Below, in pieces: positions 17,774 to 34,078 of a stretch of DNA of 64,000 nucleotides; the first letter of the stretch is position 1; each line of letters starts with the position of its first letter. A program made the position numbers and the translations under genes. The stretch is from positions 310,001 to 374,000 of the forward strand of contig NZ_JASJND010000007.1 in the NCBI RefSeq assembly GCF_030065535.1, given 5' to 3'. The notes under the pieces are model-generated. The model had not been told where the DNA came from, made no database searches, and worked only from the letters and a program-made list of their open reading frames with translations. The stretch is from Microbacterium dauci (GTDB lineage: Bacteria; Actinomycetota; Actinomycetes; Actinomycetales; Microbacteriaceae).

Positions 17774-17793
17774 CCGAAGTACAGCTCGTACTC
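17774..17793. repeat. attL core (20-bp direct repeat, copy 1)
   Basis: CCGAAGTACAGCTCGTACTC, identical to 34176-34195. Read on the minus strand this copy still encodes the original end of GlnA1 (EYELYFG, then GTC and TGA at 17768-17770), a relic of the chromosomal gene. The bases right of the core (CTCCCGGGG) are phage. Confidence 0.93.
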
Positions 17794-17885
17794 CTCCCGG
17801 GGTGACGGGGTGTCGTGGGAGATGCTGAGTTCCGCGTGTTTTCGCGGCGTAGATCAACGGGGAATCATGGGTGATTCCGGCGTTC

Positions 17886-17915
17886 TGCGGACTTTTTGCG
17901 GACTCGGTGCGGACG
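17886..17915. repeat. Integrase arm-type repeats, attL side (three copies)
   Basis: TGCGGACT at 17886-17893 and 17897-17904 and TGCGGACG at 17908-17915 start exactly 11 bp apart, about one helical turn. The same octamer at the same 11-bp spacing occurs inside attR. Paired short repeats flanking a core are the layout of arm-type binding sites of tyrosine integrases. Confidence 0.75.
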
Positions 17916-17973
17916 AGGCGAGGGAACCTCGGCCAACTTGGCCGCGGCTTTCGCAGTGTCGGCGCCCGGGGTG

Positions 17974-18270
17974 ATGATGATCCGCGTGGCAGAACGGTGG
18001 CATCCAATGCTTGCCACGGTCGAGCGTCCTACTGGAACGTGGACGCTTACGACCCCGGATGGTCACGCTTACGGCCGGGTCGAGATACGCCGGCAGGGTG
18101 AGCTCGTCTTCTACCGTGCGTGGTTTCGCGACGCTGAGCTCGTGCGATCGCCAAGCCTCAGAGACGCGACGATGCTCGTCCACCGCGCCTACATCGCGAC
18201 GCTCAGCCCCGGTCCACCTCCAGGCGGCATCTACCCGGACTTGAACGGCGGTCTATCCTCGAGGCCATGA
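17974..18270 (+). CDS. Prophage hypothetical protein
   Basis: The 98-residue protein, MMIRVAERWHPMLATVERPT onward, has a beta-rich core (GTWTLTTPDGHAYGRVEIRR), an aromatic VFYRAWF segment and a helical ARDATMLVHRAY-like stretch, ending with a Pro/Gly-rich tail. No family is recognised. The start is uncertain: ATG at 17974 or 17977 is preferred over an in-frame upstream codon at 17896, which lies in the arm-repeat region. It is one of two rightward genes next to attL, facing against the leftward operon. Its stop overlaps the ATG of the next small gene (ATGA). The 17706-17973 stretch before it holds only the terminator, attL and the arm repeats. Confidence 0.55.
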   Translation: MMIRVAERWHPMLATVERPTGTWTLTTPDGHAYGRVEIRRQGELVFYRAWFRDAELVRSPSLRDATMLVHRAYIATLSPGPPPGGIYPDLNGGLSSRP

Positions 18271-18431
18271 CCGACCCGCTCGACGACACAGGCCAACCCG
18301 AGTGCCCAACCTGCGGCACCGTGATGCGTGAGATCGACGGGGGCTACGAATGCGGGTGGGACGGGACACGCATCGACATCCCCTGGGTTGAACGACCAAC
18401 CGGGGGAGACGACCTGCCGGGGTTTGGCTAA
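18267..18431 (+). CDS. Very small zinc-ribbon-like prophage protein
   Basis: The 54-residue reading frame starts with the ATG that overlaps the preceding stop codon, a sign of translational coupling. The protein contains CPTC at residues 13-16 and a single Cys in YECGW near residue 29, so it looks like half of a zinc ribbon with only three cysteines. The rest is acidic and Pro/Gly-rich (IDIPWVERPTGGDD). It ends with TAA at 18429-18431, overlapping by four bases the 3' end of the convergent gene at 18428-18706. The function is unknown. Confidence 0.5.
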   Translation: MTDPLDDTGQPECPTCGTVMREIDGGYECGWDGTRIDIPWVERPTGGDDLPGFG

Positions 18432-18706
18432 GGCCCGAGCGGGTCGTCCTTTTCCGGTGGCAGGTCCGCGGCTGCGAGCAGGCGTGCTGCTTCAAGTTGG
18501 TCGACGATGTACTTGTGCCACGCGGCGCGGCGCTCAGCAGGGATAGATGCTTCGACCATGCCGGCGAACTTCACCGCGACGTGCACTGGATGGACGTCGG
18601 AGGCTTTGAGGCGTTCGTCAGCAGCCGTGTGCGCCTCGTCGTCGTCGGATTGCAGAGCAACGAGGATGTCGAAGCAGTGGAAAGTGACCCGGTCCTGGTA
18701 GCTCAT
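18428..18706 (-). CDS. Prophage hypothetical protein, last gene of the leftward series
   Basis: The 92-residue protein, MSYQDRVTFHCFDILVALQS onward, is mostly helical and acidic, with AERRAAWHKYIVDQLEAARLL as a likely amphipathic helix. It has no membrane span and no lysis-protein motif. Its start overlaps the stop of the sigma-like gene by four bases (18703-18706), so the two are probably translated together. It is the most promoter-distal gene of the leftward series and lies where many actinophages keep lysis genes, but nothing in its sequence supports such a role. Confidence 0.6.
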   Translation of the reverse strand: MSYQDRVTFHCFDILVALQSDDDEAHTAADERLKASDVHPVHVAVKFAGMVEASIPAERRAAWHKYIVDQLEAARLLAAADLPPEKDDPLGP

Positions 18707-19716
18707 GCCACCAAGGTACGGCCTGCATCAGACGCTGCTGCTTTTGCTTCAGCACCATTCTTTGGGGCTTGGATACCGTGCCGGGTTCGCCACGTGGCGA
18801 TGGCGTACCTGGAACGCGATTCCGCCCATCCGGTGCGAGCCGCAACGTCCGCCACGCTCGACGGAGGAGGGTTGAGGCCGTCGAGGATGTTGGCATCGGC
18901 GTCATAGTCAAGCTTCACGGCGCGCAGTGACGGCTGCACTTTGATGCCGTTGCCAGAATCGAGCATGTCCAGAATGTAGGAGACGTCCACTCGGTAGGCG
19001 ATCTGCACCCACCCGAGCCATGAGGGCAAGTCGCATCCGTAGGTCTCCTGCACATACGCTTCGGCGGCGTCCTGCAGTGGCGTTTCGTAGTCCTCTCGGA
19101 TAGCCGGAACGCGCGGCACGTCGTTGGGTCCCTTGTCGAGCACGAGGCGCATTGCGTGGTGCAGCAGATAGGCCGTGTTGTTATGGATCCATGTCCGTGC
19201 GGGCTTGTCTGTCGCCCCGACCATCCCACCGATTTGCCTTGAGGACATGCCTTCGAAGAAGAAGAGCGCCAGCGGGATCTTGTTCACTCGCGGAAGAAGC
19301 GCGATGACGTCCGCCAACTGCCGGAGAAGGAGTCCATCGTGCTGCTGAGTGCGAAGTGAAGTGAAGACCGCGGCCGGATCGGCATTGGGAAACTCGGGGC
19401 GCGGCGAGATGCTTCGGAAGTCGGTGATTCGTGTTGCCCACTTCGCTTTCGCGTTGGTGATGCCGCTGTCGACCCGGTTCTTGACGCATGCCCACACCCA
19501 CGTCCATGCGCGGAAGTCGATACTCCCTTCGTCTAGTTGATTGATCACCTCAGTCAGGGCGAGCCATGCAATCGCGGCACGATCCTCGGGATGGAAGTAG
19601 ACGTTGTTTGAGAGATTCCACCGCGCGATCGCATAACCCCGGGCTGGGCCGAGCATCGCTTCGAAGGCGAGCTCACGGCTGTAGTCGAGCCCTTCCAAGT
19701 CGTCGAGCCAGGTCAT
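18703..19716 (-). CDS. Prophage sigma-70-like protein with extra C-terminal domain
   Basis: The 337-residue protein has a segment like sigma region 2 (EDRAAIAWLALTEVINQLDE then FRAWTWVWACVKNRV, residues 44-82) and one like region 4 (LLPRVNKIPLALFFFEGMSS then RQIGGMVGA...RTWIHNNTAYLLHHAM, residues 140-190). In the latter the helix-turn-helix spans about residues 155-182. About 140 residues follow that are not part of a usual ECF sigma, including a second HTH-like stretch SSVADVAARTGWAESRSRYA near residues 290-310. GAAAGG lies 8 nt before the ATG. The gene is visibly less GC-rich than its neighbours. It follows the tail genes in the leftward series. A role in late transcription or host redirection is inference; a DNA-binding regulator that only resembles sigma is the alternative. 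Confidence 0.65.
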   Translation of the reverse strand: MTWLDDLEGLDYSRELAFEAMLGPARGYAIARWNLSNNVYFHPEDRAAIAWLALTEVINQLDEGSIDFRAWTWVWACVKNRVDSGITNAKAKWATRITDFRSISPRPEFPNADPAAVFTSLRTQQHDGLLLRQLADVIALLPRVNKIPLALFFFEGMSSRQIGGMVGATDKPARTWIHNNTAYLLHHAMRLVLDKGPNDVPRVPAIREDYETPLQDAAEAYVQETYGCDLPSWLGWVQIAYRVDVSYILDMLDSGNGIKVQPSLRAVKLDYDADANILDGLNPPPSSVADVAARTGWAESRSRYAIATWRTRHGIQAPKNGAEAKAAASDAGRTLVA

Positions 19717-19728
19717 TTGAAGCGCCTT

Positions 19729-21192
19729 TCAAGCCCCGCTGGTGCGGACGATGGTGGGGAGATCGAGGGAGCCGGTGGCGGAGGCGGTTCCGATCGGCAG
19801 AGCGTTATCGAGGGTCGCGGTCACTGACCAGGACACCGTCTTCGTGCCGTCGCTCTCGTGGGTGATCGTGACGGTGTCGTTGAGTAGCGAGATCGTCTGG
19901 GGTGTTGACCGTCGGAAGTCGTAGGCGAAACCGGAACTGCCCTTCGTCTTCCCGCCGATGTTGAGCGACCAGGTGCTGTCGTTATCCGCGTTCCACTTGC
20001 CGTCGCCTGCGGTCTTCTCGAGCCAGACGCGGCGGCGAAGTAGTGACGTGTTCGTGAGCACGTTCTGCGAGACCGACTCGATGAGGAGGTGAAGCCGATA
20101 GCGGTTGTCGCCGCTGAAGGTGACGGTCTCTCGGAGGCGCACAGGTTCAGCGGGCTCTTCAGTGGGGTCTTCGGGTGTCTGGGAGGTGTCCATCGTGCGA
20201 GCCGTGACAGTCATCTCATCGTTGGCAAGGTTGAACTCGACGGTCTGGATCGCACCGAACTGTGTGGGGGCGTCGGGGAACGTGAAGGTGGCCGGCTGCT
20301 CGGCTCGTGTGTTCCAGTCCGCGACGATGGTTGCCGATACCTCGCGCCCGCGCTGCTGCGCCCGCCTGACGGCGTACTCGGATCGGCCCGGGCCAGGGTA
20401 GGGGGAGTTGAGGGTCACGAGACTGGCGCGGCTGTACGGCGTGCGGAGCGCAAACGCGTCGACTCGCTCCCGTTGCGCACCTCCGGAGTCGGTCCACCGG
20501 TAGCGGGTGATTCGGGCATCGAACCAGAGGTCTCCGTCCCGGTCGATGGTGTCTTGCGCTTCGATCAGGTTGACGCCGGTGGTGAGGTTGAGGACGTCAC
20601 CGTCACCGGTGTAGTTCGCGTCACGTAGGGTCCACACACGCGCCTCGTCGCACACGAGACGGAGCCCGAGAGCTTGCACGAGCGGGTGCAGGAACTCGAT
20701 CGCGGACTCGCCGGCCTTCCAGAGCAGCGCTTCCTCGTCGGCGTCCTCACCCACCGGGGCGCGATCGTCGGAGGGCGCGAGGACTGCGCCCGGGATCGCT
20801 CGGTCGAGCACGTACGAGACGACGGCGCGGATCGAAGTCATCCCGGCCATCGCTGTGACGTTCGCGAGCGGGCGGTAGTCACCAAGCAGCGCCTCATCGG
20901 ACGCGAGATCCACGGTGATGATGCCGGAGCCGTAAGCAGCAGGCCGCCGGCGCACTCCGAGGTTGAAGGTGCGCTCCTGCACCACGGGCCCGTCCTCGCC
21001 CTGGAAGATCGCTTTGACGTCGAGAATGACGCGGGGCGCGTCGCGCGGGTCGAGCAGCTCCAGGAACCGCATTGGCACCTGGATGTTCGCCTGTACATGG
21101 GGGGAGCGGCCAGCATCGAGGGAGATGCTGCCGTCGATGATCGGGAGATCCTCGCCCGCGATCTCGGCAGTGTAGGTGTGGGTTGAGTTCAT
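19729..21192 (-). CDS. Minor tail protein with DUF859-like C-terminus
   Basis: The 487-residue protein starts MNSTHTYTAEIAGEDLPIID at ATG 21192; the reading frame is open far upstream, but that part is a shadow of the tail and tape-measure genes. The N-terminal 330 residues resemble tail-associated baseplate hub proteins (repeated beta segments, LNLTTGVNLIEAQDTIDRDG). The last 130 residues (VTFSGDNRYRLHLLIESVSQ onward, ending SATGSLDLPTIVRTSGA) resemble the DUF859 phage structural domain, a beta-sandwich seen at the tips of siphovirus tails. It likely forms the tail tip or receptor-contact structure. The ATG overlaps the stop of the preceding tail gene by four bases. Confidence 0.75.
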   Translation of the reverse strand: MNSTHTYTAEIAGEDLPIIDGSISLDAGRSPHVQANIQVPMRFLELLDPRDAPRVILDVKAIFQGEDGPVVQERTFNLGVRRRPAAYGSGIITVDLASDEALLGDYRPLANVTAMAGMTSIRAVVSYVLDRAIPGAVLAPSDDRAPVGEDADEEALLWKAGESAIEFLHPLVQALGLRLVCDEARVWTLRDANYTGDGDVLNLTTGVNLIEAQDTIDRDGDLWFDARITRYRWTDSGGAQRERVDAFALRTPYSRASLVTLNSPYPGPGRSEYAVRRAQQRGREVSATIVADWNTRAEQPATFTFPDAPTQFGAIQTVEFNLANDEMTVTARTMDTSQTPEDPTEEPAEPVRLRETVTFSGDNRYRLHLLIESVSQNVLTNTSLLRRRVWLEKTAGDGKWNADNDSTWSLNIGGKTKGSSGFAYDFRRSTPQTISLLNDTVTITHESDGTKTVSWSVTATLDNALPIGTASATGSLDLPTIVRTSGA

Positions 21193-21692
21193 CGCCACAC
21201 GCCCCACAACCTTCGGGCGTTCGGCCCGTCGACCTCTTGGTAGTCGACCCGCAGTCGCCACGACTGCGTCGAGGTGAGCGTCCTGGTGACGTCGCCGCTC
21301 ACGACGTAGAACATCTCCGCGGAGCCGAGGAGGCTGCGTCGTTCGTCCTCGTTTCCGGCACGGGAGCCATCGGGCGTCCAGCGATCGCTGAGGCCGTGGG
21401 GAAGTTTCAGGTCGAGCGCCAGCACCTGCCCGTACCTGTGCAGCGTCTCCGCTCGCATTGCTTCTTGGGTCGAGTTGAAGTGCAGGGTGAGCGTTCCCGT
21501 TCGCAGAGTGGCGGGTCGGAAGGTGACGTCCGGGAACCGTGAGCCGAGGATCTGGTGGACGATGTTCTGCGATTGCACGGTGGACTCGTAGCCCTCGACC
21601 GCGGTGGGGTTCACCCAGGGGAGGTTCGAGTAGTGCGGCGGGTTGGGGTCGGAAAACATCCCGCCGAGCGAGGCTTCGCGAATCATGTGCAT
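21189..21692 (-). CDS. Minor (distal) tail protein
   Basis: The 167-residue protein begins MHMIREASLGGMFSDPNPPH. The pattern of RTGTLTLHFNSTQEAM, a conserved segment of phage distal tail/minor tail proteins, and the C-terminal RLRVDYQEVDGP stretch suit a Dit-like ring that joins the tail tube to the tip. It lies between the tape-measure gene and the tip protein, the expected place. It overlaps the next gene by four bases and follows the tape-measure stop by two. Confidence 0.7.
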   Translation of the reverse strand: MHMIREASLGGMFSDPNPPHYSNLPWVNPTAVEGYESTVQSQNIVHQILGSRFPDVTFRPATLRTGTLTLHFNSTQEAMRAETLHRYGQVLALDLKLPHGLSDRWTPDGSRAGNEDERRSLLGSAEMFYVVSGDVTRTLTSTQSWRLRVDYQEVDGPNARRLWGVWR

Positions 21693-21694
21693 TG

Positions 21695-22900
21695 CTACTC
21701 CCAGAGCCGTCCGTTTGCGCCGTGCACGCGGGCGCGGATGGTCCCGTTCTTCGCGGCGGGCGTGTAGTTCCGCCAGTCGCTGTCATCGACGACCGTGCGG
21801 ACGGTGACTGTCTTCTCGGCAAGCTCACGCTGCTCGAGGGCGTCGAGGTCTTCGTGCGCGGTCTTCGCGTCCGCGTCGATGACGATCTCCTTGCCGTCTG
21901 GGAGCTTGTAGATCGTGTTGCCGAGGTCGTCGGTCTTGTCCGTCGCGGTGCCCGCGCTGGTGGCGTAGTCGTACAGCGCGCGCGAGGCGTTCTCGGCCTG
22001 CTCCTTCCCGAGACGCATCGCTTCGCTCTGGAGCCCGAGCGCTTCGGTGCCGCGGGCGATCTCCTGGCCGAGCTCGCGCTGCTCTGCAGTCATCGTCGAT
22101 TTGTCGTAGGACATGCCCGAGCCGGTGGAGGTCTCACGGAGCACCTCGCCCCATTCGCGCTGCTTGTCATTCAGCGACGACGTCGCGACCTCGAGAGCGG
22201 TCGCATCGCCGGCCATTGCGCGCATCGCGGTGGCCACATCAGTGCCCCAGTCGGTGGCGTTCTGCTTGGCCTGCTTGTAGCGCTCCTCGTTGGTCGCGAT
22301 GTCCTGCACCTCGGCAACCACATGCGAGGCGGAGACGATTTTGCCGGCGCTCTCCTGGTACGCGCTCGCCCACTCTGCGGCGGATTCTGCGAGCGCCTGC
22401 TGCTTCTCGTCGGCCTCCTGCAGGCTGGCGGTCACCGCACCGAGGCCGACCGCGCCAGCAGCGAGTGCAGCGGCGCCTACGAGGCCAGCAGGTCCAGCAC
22501 CGGCGAGCGTCGCGGCGAGTCCACCGAGCGTGTCCTGCCCGACCTGGCCGAGGTCGGACATGTCGCCGCGGAACGAGGAGACCGCCTCGCCGAGGTTCTG
22601 GCCCATCTCCTGCGAGAGCTCGGATGCGCCACCCTTCACGCGGTCGAAGCCACGCTTGCCACCGTCGCCGAGGTCACGCATGCTGTCGTCAGCACGCTTG
22701 GACGCCTTCTGCACGTCGCGCAGCTCGTCCTCGAGCTTGTCGAGACTCCGAGCGCCATCCTGAGACGCTCGACCCGCGGCGGTCGCTAGGTCGGTGAATG
22801 CCTCCTCCGCGTCGCCGAGCGGCTTCACGACGCCGGAGCGGATGCCCTCGTCGAACTCTCGGGTGTTCGCCGCGATCCCGATCTCGTGAACGGACGCCAT
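21695..22900 (-). CDS. Tape-measure protein, short
   Basis: The 401-residue protein is mostly helical, with Ala-, Gln- and Asp-rich coiled segments (ARSLDKLEDELRDVQKASKR) and a hydrophobic Ala/Gly patch typical of tape measures (AGPAGLVGAAALAAGAVGLG, around residues 135-154). Position, immediately before the distal tail gene, supports the call. The length is very short for a siphovirus; at the usual 0.15 nm per residue it predicts a tail of roughly 60 nm. The start ATG at 22900 overlaps the TGA of the preceding gene. Upstream in-frame codons exist but would run into that gene. Confidence 0.8.
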   Translation of the reverse strand: MASVHEIGIAANTREFDEGIRSGVVKPLGDAEEAFTDLATAAGRASQDGARSLDKLEDELRDVQKASKRADDSMRDLGDGGKRGFDRVKGGASELSQEMGQNLGEAVSSFRGDMSDLGQVGQDTLGGLAATLAGAGPAGLVGAAALAAGAVGLGAVTASLQEADEKQQALAESAAEWASAYQESAGKIVSASHVVAEVQDIATNEERYKQAKQNATDWGTDVATAMRAMAGDATALEVATSSLNDKQREWGEVLRETSTGSGMSYDKSTMTAEQRELGQEIARGTEALGLQSEAMRLGKEQAENASRALYDYATSAGTATDKTDDLGNTIYKLPDGKEIVIDADAKTAHEDLDALEQRELAEKTVTVRTVVDDSDWRNYTPAAKNGTIRARVHGANGRLWE

Positions 22901-23403
22901 CACTTCCCCTTCAGTTCGAGGGCATCGAGCGCCGTGCGGACGGCGGTCTGCACCCACAGCGCTGCGAAGCGGGGGATGCTGTCGCGGGCTGCAGGGTGGA
23001 ACGTGTTGCCGCCACGGCGGGGGATGCCGAACGCGTTGCCGAGGCGCCGGGAGTAGCGGTTGCCCTTCCGGGATCGCTGCGTGATCTGCTTCGTGGGGTC
23101 AGCGCCGAACTCCGCAGCCTTCGCGATGGCCGACACGGGCGTGCCAGAGGCGAGCTTGCCGACCGACCCGGAGCGGAGGAACACGTTCCGAGCGGTCACG
23201 CCCACGCGTGCCGGGTTCACGAGCGCCCGCTGCTGCAGGCGTGTTCCGGCGCGATCCCGAGTCTCCCCGAACCAGATCGGTTCGGCCGCGGCTTTGGTCT
23301 GCACGCCGATCTGCTTGCGAACTTCGGCGGGCAGACCCCTCGCCGCGATGAGCATGTCCCGCAGAGGTGAGTCGACCAGCAGGCTGATGCGTCCACTGGC
23401 CAT
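22900..23403 (-). CDS. Phage tail-assembly/HK97 gp10-like protein
   Basis: The 167-residue basic protein starts MASGRISLLVDSPLRDMLIA at ATG 23403. The segments RGLPAEVRKQIGVQTKAAAE and the Arg-rich GNRYSRRLGNAFGIPRRGG, with a closing helix AVRTALDALELKGK, resemble gp10-type minor proteins of the head-tail/tail region. It lies between the major tail protein and the tape measure, where tail-assembly chaperones usually sit. I saw no slippery-sequence frameshift that would make the usual G/GT pair. Assignment is by position and general character. Confidence 0.5.
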   Translation of the reverse strand: MASGRISLLVDSPLRDMLIAARGLPAEVRKQIGVQTKAAAEPIWFGETRDRAGTRLQQRALVNPARVGVTARNVFLRSGSVGKLASGTPVSAIAKAAEFGADPTKQITQRSRKGNRYSRRLGNAFGIPRRGGNTFHPAARDSIPRFAALWVQTAVRTALDALELKGK

Positions 23404-23408
23404 CCCGG

Positions 23409-23816
23409 TCAGCCCCCGACAGGTGCGGTGAACGTCGGCTGCCCGATCACACCGAGGTTGAGGGTGGCGGAGTGACGGCCAGTGTCGCCGCCCACCTGCG
23501 CTGCCTTGAACCGCACCGTCGCGGCGATCGCGTCGCCGCCGTCCTGGGGCGTGTAGACGATGTCCTTCGTCTGCCCGTGCCATTCGATTGCGCGCTTCGA
23601 GAGGGAGCCGGCCGTCTTCCAATCCTGGTGGAAGGCGATCTGCAGTTCCCAGGCGTTGTCGCCCACGAAGGACTGGATGTCGCCGGAGATGTCGATGACG
23701 GACTCGGAAGGGGCGGTCGGGATGAGCGCGCAGCTGGTGACGCCGTAGTGCTCGTCGTCATCGACGGTGAGGGTTCCCGTCGTCCCGAAGTAGGCGGCGT
23801 TTCGGATGGTGGCCAT
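23409..23816 (-). CDS. Major tail protein (tail tube)
   Basis: The 135-residue protein, MATIRNAAYFGTTGTLTVDD onward, has alternating beta segments (ESVIDISGDIQSFVGDNAWE, AIAATVRFKAAQVGGDTGRH, SATLNLGVIGQPTFTAPVGG), the pattern of small tube proteins of siphoviruses. The closing TFTAPVGG is typical of actinophage tube proteins. It sits just after the tail-terminator-like gene (2-nt gap) and before the gp10-like gene. The tube monomer would assemble around the tape-measure protein. Confidence 0.75.
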   Translation of the reverse strand: MATIRNAAYFGTTGTLTVDDDEHYGVTSCALIPTAPSESVIDISGDIQSFVGDNAWELQIAFHQDWKTAGSLSKRAIEWHGQTKDIVYTPQDGGDAIAATVRFKAAQVGGDTGRHSATLNLGVIGQPTFTAPVGG

Positions 23817-23818
23817 GA

Positions 23819-24217
23819 TTACTCCTCGGTGGGGGTCTGGATGGGGATGTGCGACAGGAGGGTGAGCGTGACCCGCCAGGCGATTGCGCCGTTGGCGAGG
23901 CGCTCCTTGCGGGCGGTGTCCCAGAAGATGTCGTCGGAGCGCTGAAGCGCGTGTACGAGGTTGAGGATCTGTGCGTCTGCACCGTCCTCGTCGCCGCTGC
24001 CCGCGGAGGCGAGGACCGCGTCCATCTGCGGTGCGACTGTCTGCCGGTCGAGCGCGGCGCCCTGGACCGACGATGAGATCTCGGTGAACTCGAAGTAGAG
24101 AACCGGCACGACTGTGTCGACCGCCGGAGTGAGCGCATCCTCGATACGGATGCCTGGCAGGAGCGGCTTGAGCCGCGCCTTCACGTCCGCGCGGAGGCCA
24201 GCGAGGTCAGAAAACAT
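23819..24217 (-). CDS. Tail terminator / neck protein
   Basis: The 132-residue protein, MFSDLAGLRADVKARLKPLL onward, has the N-terminal helix and beta-rich body (TVVPVLYFEFTEISSSVQGA, AIAWRVTLTLLSHIPIQTPT) typical of tail-terminator or minor neck proteins, which cap the tail tube and join it to the head. The gene order (adaptor, this gene, tube protein) agrees. It overlaps the preceding adaptor gene by 11 bases. Confidence 0.6.
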   Translation of the reverse strand: MFSDLAGLRADVKARLKPLLPGIRIEDALTPAVDTVVPVLYFEFTEISSSVQGAALDRQTVAPQMDAVLASAGSGDEDGADAQILNLVHALQRSDDIFWDTARKERLANGAIAWRVTLTLLSHIPIQTPTEE

Positions 24218-24623
24218 CTGGCACCCCCGAGGTGGGGCGGATGATGCGCTGGATGTCCTTGGTCAGCGGGCGCGGTGAGTACGCGAACCCGTCGGGTCCG
24301 TCCTCGCCCTTGCCCGCGAGCCACAGGTTCTTCGCCTGCTGCAGTTGCGCGAACGCGTAGCGGTCTGGGATGGCGGTGGGAGCAGCCTCGAGGTCGAGGA
24401 GGGTGAGGACCGCAGCGATCCGCCCCTCCTCGACACCGAGGTTCTCGAGCAGGTCAGCGACCTGGACCGCCGGTTCATCATCCGCCGCGAAGTCGAGCAC
24501 CTGCTCGCGCGCCACCGACAGCAGCAGTTCGCAGAGCTCGACGTTCTCGATGGGTAGCTCGGGGAGGGCGGCGTGTGCGCGCGCCTCCCCGTCTGCCTCT
24601 AGGAGTGTGAACCAGCGGGCCAT
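24207..24623 (-). CDS. Head-tail adaptor protein
   Basis: The 138-residue acidic helical protein, MARWFTLLEADGEARAHAAL onward, has the make-up of gp6/gp15-like head-tail connectors: a helical N-terminal half (LCELLLSVAREQVLDFA) and a loop-rich C-terminus with LQQAKNLWLAGKGEDGPDGF. It follows the capsid gene by 3 nt, the usual position of the adaptor that binds the portal ring. Family membership is inferred from position and composition. Confidence 0.6.
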   Translation of the reverse strand: MARWFTLLEADGEARAHAALPELPIENVELCELLLSVAREQVLDFAADDEPAVQVADLLENLGVEEGRIAAVLTLLDLEAAPTAIPDRYAFAQLQQAKNLWLAGKGEDGPDGFAYSPRPLTKDIQRIIRPTSGVPDVF

Positions 24624-24626
24624 GAA

Positions 24627-26327
24627 TCAGGCCGGCTTCGTTCCGATGAGGACGAGCGCCTCGGGGCGGACGACGAAGGTCTCGAGGTAGCCGATGACTG
24701 CCTTGTCGATGCCGCCCTTGGCGATGTCGAGCGCGTCGATCTGGATCGGGGTGCTGCCCTGTTCCCGGAACTCGATCGCGTTCTTCGCGCCAGCGAGTAC
24801 CTGCGGTTCGGTGGGCACCGTGCCGGGGAAGAAGGACTGCGCGGCCTTCTTGATGACGACCTTGCCGTCCGCGGCGCCCTGGCCACTGCCGGCGGTGACG
24901 CCGAACGAGACGTACTCGGGGATGAGCTCCTTCGGGGTGTAGAGGAGCTGGTTCCATGCGGTCGGGTTGACGACGACCGAAGCGGCGTCGTCGTCCGCGT
25001 CGCTGATCGCTTCGATCGCCTGGATGACCATGCCCATCGCGGTCGGGTAGTCGTGGCCGGCGACGTCGGGGAAGGTGCCCGGTGCGACGAGGCGGTCGAG
25101 TGCCGCCGAGGTGCGAGATGCGGCCTCGAAGACTGCCTTGAGGCCGTCCTCGTCGGTGACCTTCGCGTAGGAGTCCACGACGCCTTCGAAGAAGGCCTGG
25201 AGGACGTCAGCGCCGCCTTCGAGGTCGTACCACTCGCGGGCGACGTCTGCGCCGTACCCGTAGGGCTGGATGCTCGAGGACTTCGTGCCGGTGGTGGCGG
25301 TGCCGGAGGGGATGTCGGACTTGTTGCCGTTCCACTTCTGGACGAGGGCGGTGCCCTGCGCGAGGGTGAAGCCCTTGCGTCCGCCGAGCTGGATGCCGCC
25401 GTAGGTGTGGGTGAACAGGTCGAGGTACTTGCGCTGGTATCGCTTGCCCTGCCAGAGCTTGCCGACCCAGGCGGGCTGCAGCACACCGGACGCAGCGGTG
25501 GTGAGACCGCCGGTCGCGTTGTACTTGATGTCGGAGAGCGCGGCGAGCAGCGTCTCAGCGTCGGGTGCGGACATGCCGGTCTTGACCTGCGCCATGCTGG
25601 CGAAGATGGTCCCGAGGGATGCCTCTTCGGCGGCGGACTGCTGACCCGCGAGCAGGGTGGTGGGGACGGTCGTGGCCGGAGTCTGCGTCCCCGGCTCGGT
25701 TGCGGTGGCGGTCACGGTGGACCCTCCTTCTGGGTTGTCCTCAGCCGGGGCGGCCTCGGGGGTGTAGGTCGCCGTCTCGCCATCTGGCGTGTTGACGGTG
25801 ATGTCTGCAGGGAGCGCGGAGGACAGAACCGTGAGGTGCCCCTCCTCGTCGGGTGCGAGGGTCGTGTCCAGTTCGACGGCTTCGGTGTCTTCGGCGGCGA
25901 GAAGCGTCGCGCCCTCGAAGGCGGGTCGCTTGACCTGGGCGGCGGCGAAGAGCACGGAGCCGGGGAGCGCCTTGCCGTCGCGGATGCGGACCTCAGCGAC
26001 CTCGGCGGACAGGTGCTTGCGATCGCCCGTCTTGCCTTCCTCGAATGCGCGTCTGCCGGCGGCGTTGCGGCGATAGCTGAACGTCGCCATGACGCCCTCG
26101 GGCTGCTCCCAGACCTTCGAGAAGGCACCGACGACGTGCTCGCGCTTGTGCTCGATGTTGAGCGACATCCCGGTGAGATCTTCGTCCAAGGTGATATCGC
26201 CGGGTGCGAAGGTGAACGTGCCGAGGTTCGAGCGCGCGGGGACGCCGTAGGGGATGAGCAGGCCGGTGGCGGTGAGGTCATCCTCGGAGAACTCGAGGGT
26301 GCCGGCGTCGATGATGACAGGTTCCAT
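24627..26327 (-). CDS. Fused capsid maturation protease and HK97-type major capsid protein
   Basis: One continuous 566-residue reading frame joins two head functions. Residues 1-150 are a prohead protease: the His is in MSLNIEHKREHVVGAF (His60) and the Ser in HLSAEVAEVRI (Ser107), as in HK97-family S78/U35-like proteases. Residues about 150-235 are an acidic, Thr/Pro-rich linker. Residues about 235-566 are an HK97-fold capsid protein (WVGKLWQGKRYQRKYLDLFT, then VVVNPTAWNQLLYTPK, ending IGYLETFVVRPEALVLIGTK). In most tailed phages these are separate genes. The protease would have to cut its own linker during maturation. The gene follows the portal gene by 3 nt. Confidence 0.85.
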   Translation of the reverse strand: MEPVIIDAGTLEFSEDDLTATGLLIPYGVPARSNLGTFTFAPGDITLDEDLTGMSLNIEHKREHVVGAFSKVWEQPEGVMATFSYRRNAAGRRAFEEGKTGDRKHLSAEVAEVRIRDGKALPGSVLFAAAQVKRPAFEGATLLAAEDTEAVELDTTLAPDEEGHLTVLSSALPADITVNTPDGETATYTPEAAPAEDNPEGGSTVTATATEPGTQTPATTVPTTLLAGQQSAAEEASLGTIFASMAQVKTGMSAPDAETLLAALSDIKYNATGGLTTAASGVLQPAWVGKLWQGKRYQRKYLDLFTHTYGGIQLGGRKGFTLAQGTALVQKWNGNKSDIPSGTATTGTKSSSIQPYGYGADVAREWYDLEGGADVLQAFFEGVVDSYAKVTDEDGLKAVFEAASRTSAALDRLVAPGTFPDVAGHDYPTAMGMVIQAIEAISDADDDAASVVVNPTAWNQLLYTPKELIPEYVSFGVTAGSGQGAADGKVVIKKAAQSFFPGTVPTEPQVLAGAKNAIEFREQGSTPIQIDALDIAKGGIDKAVIGYLETFVVRPEALVLIGTKPA

Positions 26328-26330
26328 AGG

Positions 26331-27359
26331 TCAGTCCTCCCGGACCGGTGCGGTGGTCGGTGTGGGTGTGGTGAACGCGTCGGACACGTCGAAGGCGACG
26401 TAGGTTCCGGGTGCGCTGACGTCGTCGAGGGAGAGGCGTGCGGCGATCGCATCGGCGTAGCGTCGCGAGCCGAGATCCCAGAGCTCGGAGCGTTCGGTCG
26501 ACGTGTTGCTGTAGGACATGTCGCCCCCGCCGCCGGCCTTTGCACCCTCGATCGCGGCGGCGGGGACCGCGCAGTGATTCGCGAGGTCGAGGCGGATGCT
26601 GTTGGTCGCATCGGCAAACAGGTCGACCGCCTTGTCGCCGTGCTCCTTCACCTCGACGTACGAGGGAGTCACGGACACGCTGGTCTCCGTGCGGGTCTGC
26701 GAGTAGTCGCGAGCGAGCTTCTGCTTCTGCTTGCGAGTCATCTCATCGAACCGTGCGTCCGTCAGGTGCAGTTCGGTGCCGGCCGGAGGCGACGAGAGCC
26801 GCACGAGGCGCGCGAGATCCAGCGCCCGTGCCTGCCGGATCGTGTCGACGCCGTCCTGCAGGATGCCGCTGTCGCCGAGGGGGATGTAGATCAGCCGCTG
26901 ACGGTACTTCGCGTCGATGGCTTCCTGCACCTCGAGCTGCGCGTTCGTGATCTTCCAGAACGCCTGCGGGATGTGGATTGCATCCACGATGCGGTCGTCC
27001 TCGAGCTGACATCCAAGGAGTGCCTGCCCGCCGAGCGCGAGATCCTTCACCAGGCCCTTCGTGCGGACGAGTGGCGGGACGCCGGAAGCCGAGGACTGCA
27101 GCCATCCGGGCTGCTCTGCGGACCGCACACCGCCACCGTCGTACTGCACGAGGGGCATCGTGGAGACGACGTCCTGATGCATCTGGATCGCACGCTTGAG
27201 GCCGGGGACGCGCATCGCAGTGTCGACCGTGACGATGCGGGGGTCTACGCCGAACAGCTCCCCAACGATCGCGGTCTCGAGCGAGTCCTGCGGCGAGAAC
27301 GGCGAAACAGGGGCTGGTGTGTTCCACGTCCCCTGTACGAGCCAGTTCCAAAGTCCCAT
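26331..27359 (-). CDS. Portal protein (HK97-like, short)
   Basis: The 342-residue protein, MGLWNWLVQGTWNTPAPVSP onward, shows the portal pattern: the N-terminal segment VDTAMRVPGLKRAIQMHQDV (repeated crossing helices), a DLALGGQALLGCQLEDDRIV wing region, and a C-terminal clip with HCAVPAAAIEGAKAGGGGDM and SYSNTSTERSELWDLGSRRY. HK97-like portals are typically 380-450 residues, so this one is compact. It would form the dodecameric ring through which DNA enters. It follows the terminase with a 53-nt gap, the largest inside the structural genes, which holds a perfect inverted repeat. Confidence 0.85.
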   Translation of the reverse strand: MGLWNWLVQGTWNTPAPVSPFSPQDSLETAIVGELFGVDPRIVTVDTAMRVPGLKRAIQMHQDVVSTMPLVQYDGGGVRSAEQPGWLQSSASGVPPLVRTKGLVKDLALGGQALLGCQLEDDRIVDAIHIPQAFWKITNAQLEVQEAIDAKYRQRLIYIPLGDSGILQDGVDTIRQARALDLARLVRLSSPPAGTELHLTDARFDEMTRKQKQKLARDYSQTRTETSVSVTPSYVEVKEHGDKAVDLFADATNSIRLDLANHCAVPAAAIEGAKAGGGGDMSYSNTSTERSELWDLGSRRYADAIAARLSLDDVSAPGTYVAFDVSDAFTTPTPTTAPVRED

Positions 27360-27385
27360 CCCTTCAATGGTGACAAACCCCAGGT

Positions 27386-27400
27386 TGGAAACTGTTTCCA
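27386..27400. repeat. Inverted repeat between terminase and portal genes
   Basis: TGGAAACTGTTTCCA is a perfect palindrome of two 7-base arms around one T. It lies in the only sizeable gap of the structural operon. It may be a protein-binding site, a processing hairpin or chance; the stem is short for a terminator. Confidence 0.4.
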
Positions 27401-27412
27401 GTGGTATGTGTG

Positions 27413-28966
27413 CTAGTTCCCGACGATGTCGACGCGGGTATTGGCCGCCTTCTCGTCATCGAGGGCGTAGAGGGCTCGGGAGCACGCCTCGAGCGGGGTG
27501 ACGTCGCCCTCGGGAGCGTTCCGCTCGTCAGGGATACCGAAAGCCCACGCCCCCGAAGTGCCGAACCCGCGGCGCACGGCGAGCTCGGCTGCACGGTCGA
27601 GAGGGTCCTGCCCGTAGTGGACGAGGTCTCCGGCGTTGAGGGTCTTCATGAACAGCACCGCGGCGCGGGGAATGTCGGCGCGACGGAGCGCACGAGCCTG
27701 GATCGGTGGGCGTCCCGCGAGGAGCGGGGAGATCTCAACCGTCTCGGTGGGGCGTCCCTCGTCGTACACGACGCGACGGCGGAGCGAGCGCGCCTTCAGC
27801 AGCACCTGCTTGCGGAACCCCTCGGTGCCCTCCTGGTGGTGGATCAGGGCGACGTGCCGGCGGTCCTTCTTGCCCTTCCACGCGATCGCGATCGACGCCC
27901 ACGCGCCGTCCTTGTGGATCGCGACGGCCATCGCAAGCACGGGCGGCGGCGTGACCGTCGAGAACGGCATGTCAGCGACGGAGGACGTCCACACCGGCTG
28001 CTTGATCAATGTGGTTGCGGAACCCTCCTCGCCAGGAAGTGACAAGTACTCGCGCTGGAACGCCTTCGAGGTCATCGCATTGAAGTTGTCCTCGACGTCC
28101 GACAGGGGAGTGGTGAACCCGATACCCGGGTGATGCAGTTCGATCAGTTCCCGCACGTGCCCAAGGGGGTGCTCCTCAGTCGGCTCCCAGGCTTCGAGCT
28201 CCGCGGGGTCGATGTCCTGCTCCACGCCGTGACGGATGACGCCAGCCCTCTGCATCGTCAGCAACTGCCACAGGAGGTTGCCCTGCTGGTAGTCGGGCGC
28301 CGTCCCCGAGCCGACCATCTGAGGAAGGACGCGGCCGTCGAGAGTCGGCGGGATGGACGTCATGAGGTCTTCGGTCATCTGCGGCGTCGCGTCCTGCGCC
28401 TCGTCGACCCACGCGATGTCGTACGCGCCCGACGTGAAGGCCTCATTGCCGGGAGCGTAGGCGTTGAAGAACGAGCCGTGCGGCCACCGAATGTGCTCGG
28501 TGCCCTTGCCGGTGTTGACGATGAACGGGCGCGTCTTCGGGTCCGGGTACAGACGGTCGAGCTGCATGACGATGTCCTTCCGGAAGCGTTCGCCCGTCTT
28601 CTGGCCACCGTCCTTCTTCGTCATCGTCCAGCCCGCCAAGTAGTCCTCACGCAGCGAGCAGCGCCCCAAGATAACGGCCTGGATGGCGGTGGTCTTCGTC
28701 GAGCGACGCGGCTCGAGGATGCCGTTGAACTTCCGGCCGGCGTTGAGCATGTCGGCGATGTTCAACTGCAGCGGAGACGGACCCGGCTGCCGATCGCCAC
28801 CACGGGGACGCTTGTCCATCCGCAGCAGCCGCGCGCCCTCGAGGAACTCGCGACGCGTCTCCTCCGTCGTGACGAGCTCGGTCACCTGGACCGGGGCGGG
28901 GATCAGCGAACGCCACTCCAACCAAGTCGATTCTTCGGCGAGATCCGCCAGCGTCGGCGACTTCAT
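27413..28966 (-). CDS. Terminase large subunit
   Basis: The 517-residue packaging motor has Walker A EPRRSTKTT (residues 85-93) and Walker B YDIAWVDEAQD (around residues 182-192), followed by the coupling-motif region GSGTAPD. The nuclease half follows, with VLAMAVAIHKDGAWASIAIA, GRPTETVEISPLLA and the closing GDVTPLEACSRALYALDDEK. The total length is normal. It pumps DNA through the portal and cuts it. No small terminase subunit was recognised upstream; the nearest candidates are the HNH and HTH proteins at 29046-29650. Between 28967 and 29045 no gene is seen. Confidence 0.9.
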   Translation of the reverse strand: MKSPTLADLAEESTWLEWRSLIPAPVQVTELVTTEETRREFLEGARLLRMDKRPRGGDRQPGPSPLQLNIADMLNAGRKFNGILEPRRSTKTTAIQAVILGRCSLREDYLAGWTMTKKDGGQKTGERFRKDIVMQLDRLYPDPKTRPFIVNTGKGTEHIRWPHGSFFNAYAPGNEAFTSGAYDIAWVDEAQDATPQMTEDLMTSIPPTLDGRVLPQMVGSGTAPDYQQGNLLWQLLTMQRAGVIRHGVEQDIDPAELEAWEPTEEHPLGHVRELIELHHPGIGFTTPLSDVEDNFNAMTSKAFQREYLSLPGEEGSATTLIKQPVWTSSVADMPFSTVTPPPVLAMAVAIHKDGAWASIAIAWKGKKDRRHVALIHHQEGTEGFRKQVLLKARSLRRRVVYDEGRPTETVEISPLLAGRPPIQARALRRADIPRAAVLFMKTLNAGDLVHYGQDPLDRAAELAVRRGFGTSGAWAFGIPDERNAPEGDVTPLEACSRALYALDDEKAANTRVDIVGN

Positions 28967-29045
28967 TCGCCCTCACTTGCGGGGAGAGGGGCGCGTGTCG
29001 AGCCGTAGGCGGGGGTTGCTCGTGGTCGCTCTAGAAAAACTCGTG

Positions 29046-29348
29046 TCATGCCCATGTGGGTGTGTCCAGTCGTGTGGTGCGGGTGGGTGTGCGTCGGGCG
29101 TTGGTGATGCGTGCGCCGAGTTTGCCGCCGTGGCTGCGGTTGCCGCGTCTGCATTCGGGGGCGGCGTTGTCGATGTGTTCGCCTCCGTCTGGGTGGATGT
29201 GGCCGACGTCGTAGGGTGCGCCTTCGGGGATGAGGTGGCCGTGTCGCCAGCAGGTGACGTCGTTGCCGCGTGCCCAGGCTTGTGCGACTTGGGCGCGGAC
29301 GAGGCGGACGGTGCGTCGCCATTCGGGTGTGGCGTGTTTGGCGGTCAT
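29046..29348 (-). CDS. HNH endonuclease
   Basis: The 100-residue protein starts MTAKHATPEWRRTVRLVRAQ. It has the HNH pattern: a Cys in VTCWRHG, the His of PYDVGHIHPD, Asn in HIDNAAPECRRGNRSHG, and the closing basic tail. The start at 29348 is preferred, since the frame stays open upstream only as a shadow of the HTH gene, giving a His/Arg/Pro-rich nonsense N-terminus. HNH proteins are frequently found next to terminase genes and are needed for cos cleavage in several such phages, which suggests cohesive-end packaging here. The DNA is unusual in its many GTGG/GGTG runs. Confidence 0.8.
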   Translation of the reverse strand: MTAKHATPEWRRTVRLVRAQVAQAWARGNDVTCWRHGHLIPEGAPYDVGHIHPDGGEHIDNAAPECRRGNRSHGGKLGARITNARRTPTRTTRLDTPTWA

Positions 29349-29650
29349 GTGGTGGTGCCGATGCGTCGGAGGGCTTTGGCGACGGTGGTGTGGGTGATGC
29401 CGATGAGTGTGGCGATGGCGCGGGTGGTGAGTCCTTGTTGGTGGAGTTCGTGGATGCGGGTGTCGTGTTTGGGTGTGGGTCCGTGTTTGCGGCCGATGAT
29501 GTTGACGCTTGTGGTGCCGTGGGTGCGTGCGTGGGTGCGGGCTTCGAGGATGGCGGTGGTGTGGTCCCAGCACCATTCGCCGCGGTCGCAGGTGGTGCAT
29601 CCCCAGACGGCTGAGCCGCCGTCGCGTGGTTGTTCTGCCCAGACGGTCAT
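29345..29650 (-). CDS. Helix-turn-helix protein with Cys-rich N-terminus
   Basis: The 101-residue protein starts MTVWAEQPRDGGSAVWGCTT and has a small cysteine/His cluster (WGCTTCDRGEWCWDH) that could bind zinc. The C-terminal HTH has the sequence IHELHQQGLTTRAIATLIGI followed by THTTVAKALRRIG, typical of resolvase-type and transposase-type HTH. It may be a small DNA-binding adaptor; a small terminase role is possible given its place near terminase but is not supported by sequence. Its start overlaps the initiator's stop by four bases. Confidence 0.65.
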   Translation of the reverse strand: MTVWAEQPRDGGSAVWGCTTCDRGEWCWDHTTAILEARTHARTHGTTSVNIIGRKHGPTPKHDTRIHELHQQGLTTRAIATLIGITHTTVAKALRRIGTTT

Positions 29651-30282
29651 GCTGCGTCCAATCGGGATCGGATGACGGCGGCGAGGTTTTTTGCGCCGGT
29701 GAGGTTGGCTTCGGTGGCTTGTTTGATGCGGAGGTATCCGTCCCAGGGGTCGCCGTTGCCGAGGCGGTAGGCGTAGCGCATGAGCTCCTCGGGTGAGAGC
29801 GGGAGCTTGCGATCGGTGCGGAGCGTGCGGAGCGCGTTCACCGCAAACGGGTGGTTTTGGTGCTGTCCGGAAGGTGTGTTTAGTACGCGCGTGGGTTCGC
29901 TCTTAGGAGTTGGCACCTCTAGGGGTGCCATTTGGTCCCCTGATTTGGCACCCTCAGGGGTGCCATTTGCCTGTGGATAAGTTGGCACCCTAATGGCCCG
30001 TGAGGGTGCCATTTGATAGGCGGGCATGACGGTGTACTGAGTGGTGGTTCCGCGCTTCGACTCGTAGGCGACGAGGTCGTGGAAGGCGAGCCGTTCGAGG
30101 CAGGCGCGGACGCTCTTTCGGGACAGGCCGGCCATGTCGGCGAGCTCCGTCTGGGTGGTGGGTTCGGTGACGTTGTCTTCGCCCGCGAGGCTGATGAGCG
30201 CGAGCAGCAGTCGGGAATCGCCAGCGCTGATGCGCGTACGCGCGAGTGCGCCGCTCGTGGCGAACTGCTTCGGGAACCTCAT
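29647..30282 (-). CDS. Lambda-O-like replication initiator with winged-helix N-terminus
   Basis: The 211-residue protein starts MRFPKQFATSGALARTRISA. Its N-terminal half has a winged-helix pattern (TELADMAGLSRKSVRACLER, then LVAYESKRGTTTQYTV), as in replication-initiation proteins. The middle is a flexible Pro/Ser-rich linker. The C-terminal part is helical (PFAVNALRTLRTDRKLPLSP, GDPWDGYLRIKQATEANLTG). The linker-coding DNA (29910-30015) carries repeated TGGCACCC/GGGTGCCA units and a DnaA box, which is how lambda O and related initiators hold their origin inside the gene. The identity as an initiator is an inference from that arrangement and the HTH; a plain regulator is the alternative. Confidence 0.6.
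   Translation of the reverse strand: MRFPKQFATSGALARTRISAGDSRLLLALISLAGEDNVTEPTTQTELADMAGLSRKSVRACLERLAFHDLVAYESKRGTTTQYTVMPAYQMAPSRAIRVPTYPQANGTPEGAKSGDQMAPLEVPTPKSEPTRVLNTPSGQHQNHPFAVNALRTLRTDRKLPLSPEELMRYAYRLGNGDPWDGYLRIKQATEANLTGAKNLAAVIRSRLDAA
29910..30015. other. Putative prophage replication origin: six iteron-like octamers and a DnaA box
   Basis: Three TGGCACCC-type units (TTGGCACCT at 29910-29918, TTGGCACCCT at 29945-29954 and 29982-29991) alternate with three copies of the reverse complement extended as GGGTGCCATTTG (29923-29934, 29958-29969, 30004-30015). They form three successive inverted repeats. Between the second and third lies TGTGGATAA (29972-29980), whose complement TTATCCACA is the consensus DnaA box. 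All lie inside the initiator gene's linker-coding region. Confidence 0.65.
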
Positions 30283-30584
30283 CGGATGGTGTCTCCGGGG
30301 ACGGTGAGTCGCAGGTGGGCGACGTCGGCGGGTGTGTCATTTGACACAGGTCGGGGGTAGCGGTGGGCGAGGTACTCGCGGAAGTGCTCCAGGTCCTCGG
30401 CGGTGTACTCGCGTCCCTGGTCGAAGATCCGGCCGTCCTTGGCGCTGACGGTGCGGCCGTCGTTGCGGCATCCGCAGCCCCAGACGCACCAGCCGGATGC
30501 GGGGTCGAACTCGTGTCGTTGGATGATGTTGGAGTTGGTGGCGCTGGTCTCGCGCCGGATGCGGCATTCCCTTCGGTTCGTCAT
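30279..30584 (-). CDS. Prophage hypothetical protein with clustered cysteines
   Basis: The 101-residue basic/acidic protein starts MTNRRECRIRRETSATNSNI. It has CVWGCGC near residue 33, a possible metal-binding or structural cluster, and a helical segment EDLEHFREYLAHRYPRPVSN. Its stop overlaps the start of the initiator gene by four bases, so the two may be coupled. No family is recognised. Confidence 0.55.
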   Translation of the reverse strand: MTNRRECRIRRETSATNSNIIQRHEFDPASGWCVWGCGCRNDGRTVSAKDGRIFDQGREYTAEDLEHFREYLAHRYPRPVSNDTPADVAHLRLTVPGDTIR

Positions 30585-30605
30585 CGTGTGCTCCTTCCTC
30601 TTGCG

Positions 30606-30678
30606 TCCCTCTGGTCGGATTCGAACCGACGTCGTCCACGCTTAGAAGGCGGGCGCTCATCCACTGAGCTACAGAGGG
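30606..30678 (-). tRNA. Prophage tRNA-Arg (anticodon TCT), slightly irregular
   Basis: Read on the minus strand it folds into a cloverleaf: acceptor CCCTCTG/CAGAGGG (seven perfect pairs) with discriminator A, D stem GCTC/GAGC, T stem GTCGG/CCGAC with loop TTCGAAT. The anticodon arm CCCGC-CTTCTAA-GCGTG gives anticodon TCT (arginine AGA/AGG) with one C-U mismatch and a 6-nt variable loop. A shifted pairing (CCGCC/CGTGG) would give anticodon CTA but needs a C-C closing pair. No CCA is encoded. AGA is rare in such GC-rich hosts. Confidence 0.75.
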
Positions 30679-30712
30679 GGGAGGGTGTCCGTGACCGTGG
30701 ACACCCTTGGTG

Positions 30713-31111
30713 TCAGGTGGTGGACACCTCCCGCGTGAGGTCGATCATCATCTCGAGCTCGAGCTGCACGAGGGGGTCGCTGACCGCCTTGCCCATCGCG
30801 ACCCGGTACTGCCACGCCGTCGATCCGGGGACGCGCTCGCGGGCGATCCCGCCTCGCATGGTGCGCTCCCACTTGCTGAAGAAGTAGGCGGCGCGAGGGA
30901 GCAGCTTCTTCGTGATGAGTGCGCGCTCGTCGGGGGTCACGTTCCGCAGGAACTTGATGACGAACTCCTTGCGGGACGGGATGCGCGTCACGGTGTAGAA
31001 CACACGGATCGTGAGGCTCGGATCGTTGACGAACTCGGTGTAGTAGCAGTCGGTCTTGTAGTCCTCGCCGATCGTCACGGTGTAGTCGCTGTACCGCGTC
31101 GAGGCGCTCAT
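30713..31111 (-). CDS. Prophage hypothetical protein
   Basis: The 132-residue protein starts MSASTRYSDYTVTIGEDYKT. The N-terminal half is beta-rich (LTIRVFYTVTRIPSRKEFVI) and the rest helical, with TPDERALITKKLLPRAAYFF and LVQLELEMMIDLTREVSTT at the end. No membrane span or known motif is visible. Its ATG overlaps the stop of the HTH gene 31108-31371. In the early region it could serve regulation or host interference; no function can be assigned. Confidence 0.6.
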   Translation of the reverse strand: MSASTRYSDYTVTIGEDYKTDCYYTEFVNDPSLTIRVFYTVTRIPSRKEFVIKFLRNVTPDERALITKKLLPRAAYFFSKWERTMRGGIARERVPGSTAWQYRVAMGKAVSDPLVQLELEMMIDLTREVSTT

Positions 31112-31371
31112 GCGTTCATCTCCGCGTAGGCGACGATCTCGTAGGGCGTGACGCCGAGGTGGTCCGCGATCCAGTCGATTTGGTTCGTGGTGATCTCGAC
31201 GTTGCCCGAGATGAGTTCCCAGAACTCGGCGACGGTCATCCCGATGTTGTGCGCGATCAGGATGAGCTTCGCGACCGAGATGTCGTCGATTCGAGCTCGG
31301 AGCTCCTTCGCGATCGCCCTCGTGAACGGGCCGGCCAGTGGAGTGTCGGTGGTGGGGTGTACGGTGTTCAT
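31108..31371 (-). CDS. Small HTH protein of the early region
   Basis: The 87-residue protein starts MNTVHPTTDTPLAGPFTRAI. The segment AKLILIAHNIGMTVAEFWEL followed by QIDWIADHLGVTPYEIVAYA resembles a Cro/XRE-type helical DNA-binding fold, with the recognition region not sharply defined. It lies third in the leftward early series. It may be a Cro-like regulator or an antirepressor partner. It ends with TGA overlapping the next gene's ATG. Confidence 0.5.
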   Translation of the reverse strand: MNTVHPTTDTPLAGPFTRAIAKELRARIDDISVAKLILIAHNIGMTVAEFWELISGNVEITTNQIDWIADHLGVTPYEIVAYAEMNA

Positions 31372-31374
31372 GAG

Positions 31375-31668
31375 TTAGTTGCCTTTCAGGTGACTCGAAG
31401 GCCGTCCCGCTGCAACGGGGCGGTCTTCTTCTTTGATGGGGAATGCGGCGCGGAACACTTCATCGCTGGAGTACGCGCCGATGGCGTAGACGATGTACGT
31501 GTCCAGCGCGAGGGCGTCGTGCGCGGGGTCGTACCCGTAGCCCTTCGCCTCGTAATGGACGAGGACACTGGCAGTGATGCCGATGCGTCGCGCGGCTTCC
31601 TCGGTCGTGAGCCCGAGTCCTAGCCGGATCTTCTGGAGATCGGGCTGCGGGTCGCCGATGCGGGGCAC
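31375..31668 (-). CDS. XRE-like helix-turn-helix regulator (possible Cro)
   Basis: The 97-residue protein starts at a GTG (31668) directly abutting the stop of the excisionase-like gene. An XRE-type HTH is at the N-terminus: LQKIRLGLGLTTEEAARRIG then ITASVLVHYEAKGYG (residues about 10-45). The remainder is short and mixed. Such a gene, second after the early promoter and opposite the repressor, is a plausible Cro that represses the repressor gene. That role is inferred from position. Confidence 0.6.
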   Translation of the reverse strand: MPRIGDPQPDLQKIRLGLGLTTEEAARRIGITASVLVHYEAKGYGYDPAHDALALDTYIVYAIGAYSSDEVFRAAFPIKEEDRPVAAGRPSSHLKGN

Positions 31669-31851: not shown

Positions 31852-31898
31852 CTGTAGCTCCGGAATATCAGGAAAGCCGAACCTCGACTTCGAGAATC

Positions 31899-31926: not shown

Positions 31927-31961
31927 GTCAAACCACGGGAAACCTGATACCGTTGGCGATC

Positions 31962-33564: not shown

Positions 33565-33565
33565 T

Positions 33566-34066: not shown

Positions 34067-34078
34067 AGCGGGGTAGGC

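Follow-up and report, generated by a model that had tools for sequence, protein, structure and literature searches.

A sigma-70-like gene with an additional C-terminal domain at the end of the late operon of a Microbacterium mini-prophage

Phage sigma factors are best known in larger phages, and group 5 sigma factors of the UviA/TcdR type go with bacteriocin or toxin loci that include a holin-like partner. The Microbacterium phage clusters EC and EI are reported to encode sigma factors, that of cluster EC being suggested to control phage gene expression; the cluster EC sigma gene lies among the right-arm genes and the lysis cassette after the tail genes, and in most Microbacterium phage genomes the lysis cassette directly follows the tail genes (PMC7302621). 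The element described here is not mentioned in the listed titles and abstract openings of the literature on Microbacterium prophage sigma factors or phage-encoded sigma factors, nor in the title and abstract opening obtained for prophages, sigma factors, lysis cassettes and Actinobacteria.

The window, that is, the whole stretch of 64,000 nucleotides of Microbacterium dauci DNA that was analysed, contains a temperate mini-siphophage of 16.4 kb with the following features:

17774..34195, no strand: whole mini-prophage, 16,422 bases bounded by 20-bp direct repeats and delimited by gene order
17774..17793, no strand: att-like 20-bp direct repeat, copy 1
18428..18706, minus strand: 92-aa ORF with a 4-base overlap with the sigma-like gene; no convincing family
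18703..19716, minus strand: sigma-70-like gene, 337 aa, from profile matches, relatives and model fold
19729..21183, minus strand: distal tail protein, 36% over 174 residues to PensacolaC28 gene 10, with a C-terminal DUF859
21189..21692, minus strand: tail protein, 38% over 45 residues to PensacolaC28 gene 9
21695..22957, minus strand: short tape measure protein (PensacolaC28 gene 8), the true start of which is probably internal
23409..23816, minus strand: major tail protein
24627..26327, minus strand: protein of the capsid/protease fusion type, 34% to PensacolaC28 gene 3
26331..27359, minus strand: portal, 34% to PensacolaC28 gene 2
27413..28966, minus strand: terminase large subunit, 39% to PensacolaC28 gene 1
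29345..29650, minus strand: HTH protein of 101 aa ahead of the terminase, only its position making it a small-terminase candidate
31669..31851, minus strand: HTH_17 excisionase-like protein
31953..32525, plus strand: HTH_3 repressor-like protein
32500..33564, plus strand: tyrosine integrase
34176..34195, no strand: second copy of the att-like 20-bp direct repeat, within the 3' end of ORF 34169-35593

The integrase and repressor genes are read in one direction. The opposite direction begins with an excisionase-like gene and several small genes, continues through terminase, portal, capsid and adaptor genes to those of the tail, and closes with the sigma-like gene. Ten structural proteins of PensacolaC28 (16.7 kb, PP978844.1), from the terminase to the distal tail protein, match the element in the same order, at 21% to 58%, and the arrangement of that type, terminase-portal-capsid-short tail together with an integrase and a repressor, is present. 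We take ORF 34169-35593 by eye to be the glutamine synthetase gene glnA; the elements of the window, G068 (L016:1499) and G037 (L015:9114) have in common an overlapping attachment repeat at the 3' end of a glnA gene (by eye). The window element also carries a tRNA-Arg gene (anticodon TCT; 30605-30678, minus strand) and the G037 element another (L022:724-797), and a tRNA scan found none in the other elements scanned. We favour, as probable though far from secure, the reading that the last gene of the operon encodes an ECF-like factor of the sigma-70 family that is made late in the growth of this temperate mini-siphophage and directs host RNA polymerase. The position of the gene in the operon and the order of its domains are observed directly; core binding, the choice of promoters, expression late in growth and the targets are predicted.

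An earlier note on this DNA had described the gene as a prophage-encoded, sigma-70/ECF-like ORF, less GC-rich than the rest of the element, with an extra C-terminal domain. An intact 337-aa frame with an ATG start was indeed confirmed at 18703-19716 (minus strand), and its GC content is 60.9% compared with 65.9% for the element, 2.3% of equal-length segments of the element being as low. A chance ORF is ruled out by the signature of purifying selection in three pairs of relatives (dN/dS about 0.17, 0.13 and 0.24) and by the match of the relatives' HMM. Built from nine relatives with the window copy excluded, this HMM ranks 18703-19716 first among the 381 ORFs of the window (E 3.7e-22) and aligns to residues 74 to 299. 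Residues 132-178 of the window protein match Pfam Sigma70_r4_2 with an E-value of 5.5e-4 and 20 bits, below the gathering score of 25.7, and residues 36-174 match the sigma70-ECF family TIGR02937 with an E-value of 0.0041 and 16.8 bits, compared with a cut-off of 42.9; a PHROG search of the window protein matched no family. An HMM of the C-terminal part of the relatives finds the window ORF (E 5.5e-13), whereas that of their N-terminal part does not at E<=10. The comparison with HMMs of sigma-70 regions 2 and 4 that the note had proposed recovers region 4 weakly and leaves region 2 of the window copy undetected by sequence.

The relatives belong to the sigma-70 superfamily. Five of the nine pass the TIGR02937 cut-off of 42.9 bits with matches spanning regions 2-4 (residues 22-203 of 331 in L041), the other four scoring 40.3, just below the cut-off, 27.1, 30.1 and 17 bits. 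All three relatives submitted to Pfam exceed the gathering score of Sigma70_r4_2, and PHROG sigma-factor family 1740 matches the same three with E-values of 2.7e-4, 0.0075 and 6.9e-7. In addition, every PDB chain matched at E<0.001 by a profile of six members, the window copy included, is a sigma factor, among them FliA (4e-8, with the match beginning at profile position 104), SigW, SigF and others. The sigma identity is well supported for the family and moderately supported for the window copy, and the assignment of the earlier note stands mostly through the relatives. Combining alignment, HMMs and models, the protein divides into four parts:

19435..19683, minus strand: sigma-2-like part, residues ~12-94, from alignment and a low-confidence model; not found by sequence
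19138..19326, minus strand: sigma-4 part, residues ~131-193, from the Pfam match and model
18958..19095, minus strand: family-specific conserved block, residues ~208-253, from alignment and HMM
18781..18906, minus strand: C-terminal helical segment, residues ~271-312, from the model; an HTH in relatives

The borders of the two sigma-like parts are a little wider than the residues 44-82 and 140-190 given at first, and the extra C-terminal part proves to be conserved, with an HTH at its end in the relatives. The AlphaFold2 models, one with the window protein first (mean pLDDT 54) and one of a relative, L041 (mean pLDDT 56), are both of low confidence. In the former, residues 12-94 superpose on 8b3z, the N-terminal domain of SigE (Z 7.6, rmsd 2.9, 74 residues), which is not an independent match, because the model alignment included relatives. 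In the L041 model, the N-terminal domain of SigE is matched by residues 13-103 (Z 9.1, rmsd 2.0, 74 residues), sigma-E region 4 by residues 147-214, with a sigma-4 fold (2h27; Z 7.5, rmsd 1.8, 68 residues), and the HTH of the Tc3 transposase by residues 281-329 (Z 7.2, rmsd 2.9, 49 residues). ECF (group 4) sigma factors consist of sigma-2 and sigma-4 and lack domains of regions 1.1 and 3; between sigma-2 and sigma-4 this low-confidence model has no helix of note. Foldseek returned nothing at E<=0.001 for either model, and nearly all of the best 50 rows listed per model, at E >0.001, were sigma factors or holoenzymes. Among the 50 VIA rows listed per model, all 50 for the window model are sigma factors or RNA polymerase-with-sigma entries (the matched chain being taken as sigma), as are 47 for the relative's model, where the C-terminal HTH matches the Tc3 transposase in two of the other three and the third is an 'RNA-guided transcription complex'. 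Since Z-values of this size can come from a common arrangement, most weight is given to the sequence profiles.

Within the family, the window copy has diverged furthest. The core-binding stretch of region 2, D-D-L-I-Q in the relatives, aligns with E-D-R-A-A in the window copy, and core binding by this copy may be altered or lost, because its region 2 is not recognisable by sequence. This degeneracy would suit a DNA-binding protein with a sigma-like fold that does not bind polymerase and acts, for example, in packaging, integration or repression, as would the resemblance of the C-terminal HTH of the relatives to transposase and phage HTHs and to the HTH of the small protein encoded ahead of the terminase (29345-29650). 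However, most of the relatives scanned retain matches across both regions 2 and 4, and a separate HTH protein already occupies the small-terminase position, so that we consider such a role unlikely. The sigma-like gene as the small terminase itself was rejected because it lies at the opposite end of the operon and that separate HTH protein precedes the terminase.

The family is rare. A profile search found it in eight of 366 genomes of the same genus, the own genome counted, with carriers including Microbacterium sp. oral taxon 186, M. lacticum DSM 20427 and M. hydrocarbonoxydans P30, and three viral contigs also carry the gene. One of these, the metagenomic contig L045, has 15,101 bases with a 127-base direct terminal repeat, in keeping with a circular genome of about 15 kb. 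Among 148 related genomes, a first search recovered three clear relatives as well as a match in a genome of the same order, G091 (E 1.4e-4, residues 42-108), that has two TGA codons inside. Scans with A3 found three genome loci and three viral-contig loci, whereas viral and genome contigs scanned with the window protein, and viral contigs scanned with A1 and with one relative, gave no match. In a phage collection, tblastn with a fourth family member at E<=10 gave nine partial matches, the best at E 7e-3, and a plasmid search gave six partly matching records, three of them under annotated sigma factors. Matches in a family-level sample of 398 genomes, from the own genome and 12 others, cover 50-112 of 317 positions near region 4 and were set aside as ordinary sigma factors.

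Between G080 and G037, identity is 69% for the sigma-like protein, 53% for the distal tail protein and 87% for the integrase, compared with 32% for the terminase and 29% for the capsid; between G080 and G081 the terminases are 86% identical and the sigma-like proteins 28%. The sigma-like gene therefore changes faster than the head genes or has been exchanged apart from them. The G080 and G037 elements are mosaics, alike in integrase, excisionase, distal tail and sigma (53-87%) and dissimilar in terminase and capsid. The early region of the G080 element (L021:1098-3596) contains transposase-like ORFs of the integrase-core and IS481-type families, as assigned by eye.

In PensacolaC28, genes for a minor tail protein, an endolysin and two membrane proteins stand where the window element has its sigma-like gene, and neither a lysin nor a late-strand membrane ORF was recognised after the tail genes of the window element. 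That the gene follows the tail genes, as noted earlier, is confirmed by the gene order and the PensacolaC28 matches; that this is a position of lysis genes emerges mostly from relatives and sister elements. The slot was compared in 25 elements, namely ten that bear the sigma-like gene (eight prophages, L045, and L046, which ends 564 bases past the gene) and 15 sisters (14 of 33 sigma-less, terminase-positive genomes, plus PensacolaC28), L082, L084 and L087-L090 being covered in part; L044, which is 97% identical to G080 and has the gene cut at its contig end, was excluded from the count. A lysin candidate occupies the slot in nine of the 15 sisters and was recognised in none of the ten sigma-bearing elements, the two never occurring together (Fisher p 0.0028, with related elements treated as independent). 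In nine elements, the late strand beyond the sigma-like gene holds no open frame >140 aa, and none of the unlabelled late-strand ORFs called has a membrane-like segment; no late-strand holin was recognised. No wall hydrolase was found among the 11 Pfam families matched by 20 L045 proteins. The same holds for the 25 families displayed, out of 30, in a scan of the eight prophages that took in 98 ORFs, 11 from the window and 87 out of 121 without a label; structural proteins from seven of these prophages lay outside the scan.

This lysis-slot pattern suggests a model of host-programmed lysis, in which an element with no lysis genes of its own would use the factor to switch on host wall hydrolases or stress and death programmes and so open the cell late. 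We nevertheless regard this as improbable. Missing lysis genes need no sigma factor, because six of the 15 sisters have neither a sigma-like gene nor a slot lysin, and for the same reason replacement of lysis genes by the sigma gene is not claimed as a proven event. Moreover, lysis proteins may go unrecognised in a scan of this extent: four of the nine slot lysin candidates lack a Pfam match and were assigned by position and likeness by eye, and of the five with an M23 or VanY match two lie above the cut-off and three below. The more specific proposal, that a lineage of ~15-kb temperate phages exchanged endolysin and holin for a sigma factor through which the host is led to lyse itself, is in our view distinctly unlikely; if true, cell opening would be set by transcription reprogramming rather than by phage enzymes.

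Five of the sister mini-prophages (L084, L087, L088, L089 and L090) adjoin a broken dprA, for example at L084:4879-5637 and L089:4848-5333, and seem to interrupt this DNA-uptake gene. In four of the five, the dprA part beside the element ends at profile position 146-150 of 212, and in the fifth the remainder (146-209 plus the winged helix) adjoins the element. No lysin was recognised in the slot of these five sisters, which are reminiscent of prophages that switch competence genes.

The stop codon of the distal tail gene (19729-21183) ends 12 bases before the start of the sigma-like gene and overlaps a purine-rich ribosome-binding stretch. In eight of nine elements the distance between the upstream stop and the start as called is -37 to +12 bases, the exception being G068 (+120), whose element has no recognised major tail or distal tail genes (L016:11106-14835), such that the sigma-like gene follows the tape measure gene, and may therefore be defective; G203 retains a minor tail gene ahead of the sigma-like gene. 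A cargo (moron) gene, expressed from its own promoter in the lysogen and altering host transcription in a way unrelated to phage growth, would be in keeping with the location at the element end near the attachment site and with the lower GC content. Such a gene is, however, hardly to be expected here, as there is little room for a promoter upstream in eight of the nine elements, unless inside the preceding gene, and in all members seen the gene takes the same place behind the last tail gene. Least probable, and in our estimate very unlikely, is a factor carried in the tail or head that enters the next cell with the DNA and starts early-gene transcription, since, despite the translational coupling to the distal tail gene and the inheritance of sigma with distal tail genes and integrase but not head genes in one pair (G080/G037), nothing in the sequence marks the protein as structural and G068 keeps the gene without recognised distal tail genes.

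The coupling to tail genes favours late over lysogeny-time expression. According to the preferred reading, an ECF-like factor acting on host polymerase, translation of the protein would accompany that of the tail proteins, late in the lytic programme, the sigma-2 and sigma-4 parts at its N-terminus would attach it to the host core RNA polymerase, and sigma-4, aided by the additional C-terminal HTH, would pick promoters. The predicted outcome is a late transcription programme beyond that of the host sigma factors, in all likelihood one that raises expression of the operon of the element itself. The last-gene position is, however, unusual for an activator of its own operon and counts against this reading, as does the retention of the gene in the G068 element, where major tail and distal tail genes were not recognised. 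The non-coding stretches of eight elements yielded no shared two-box motif and no 5-mer pair above shuffles, a comparison of low power. An overlap directly after a sigma gene is the usual place of an anti-sigma factor; the 92-aa ORF at this place in the window is unsupported as such a partner, with no convincing family and a weak match (E 0.013) in one pair, to the ORF after the G068 gene.

Sigma factors encoded by phages are a known kind, and what is new here is the domain make-up, the location and the tiny genome. Purifying selection maintains a sigma factor in genomes that have about 20 genes, mostly devoted to heads, tails and integration, and the mini-prophages that carry it form a group without recognised lysis genes. 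Removal of this single gene makes testable both how such elements exit the cell and what a further HTH contributes to an ECF-type sigma factor.

Among the systems compared, the UviA/TcdR type differs in its holin-like partner, none having been recognised for the window family. The post-tail lysis cassette, typical but not defining of the PensacolaC28 type, was not recognised in the window element. The EC and EI sigma factors are likewise phage-encoded and from the same host genus, but tblastn of three family members against the phage collection, which may not include EC/EI records, found nothing at E<=0.01. ECF sigma factors (TIGR02937; SigE/SigW type) share with the window family the sigma-2 and sigma-4 domains joined by a linker and provide its best profile and fold matches, whereas the window family adds about 120-140 C-terminal residues, comprising a conserved block and another HTH, and is located in a phage late operon.
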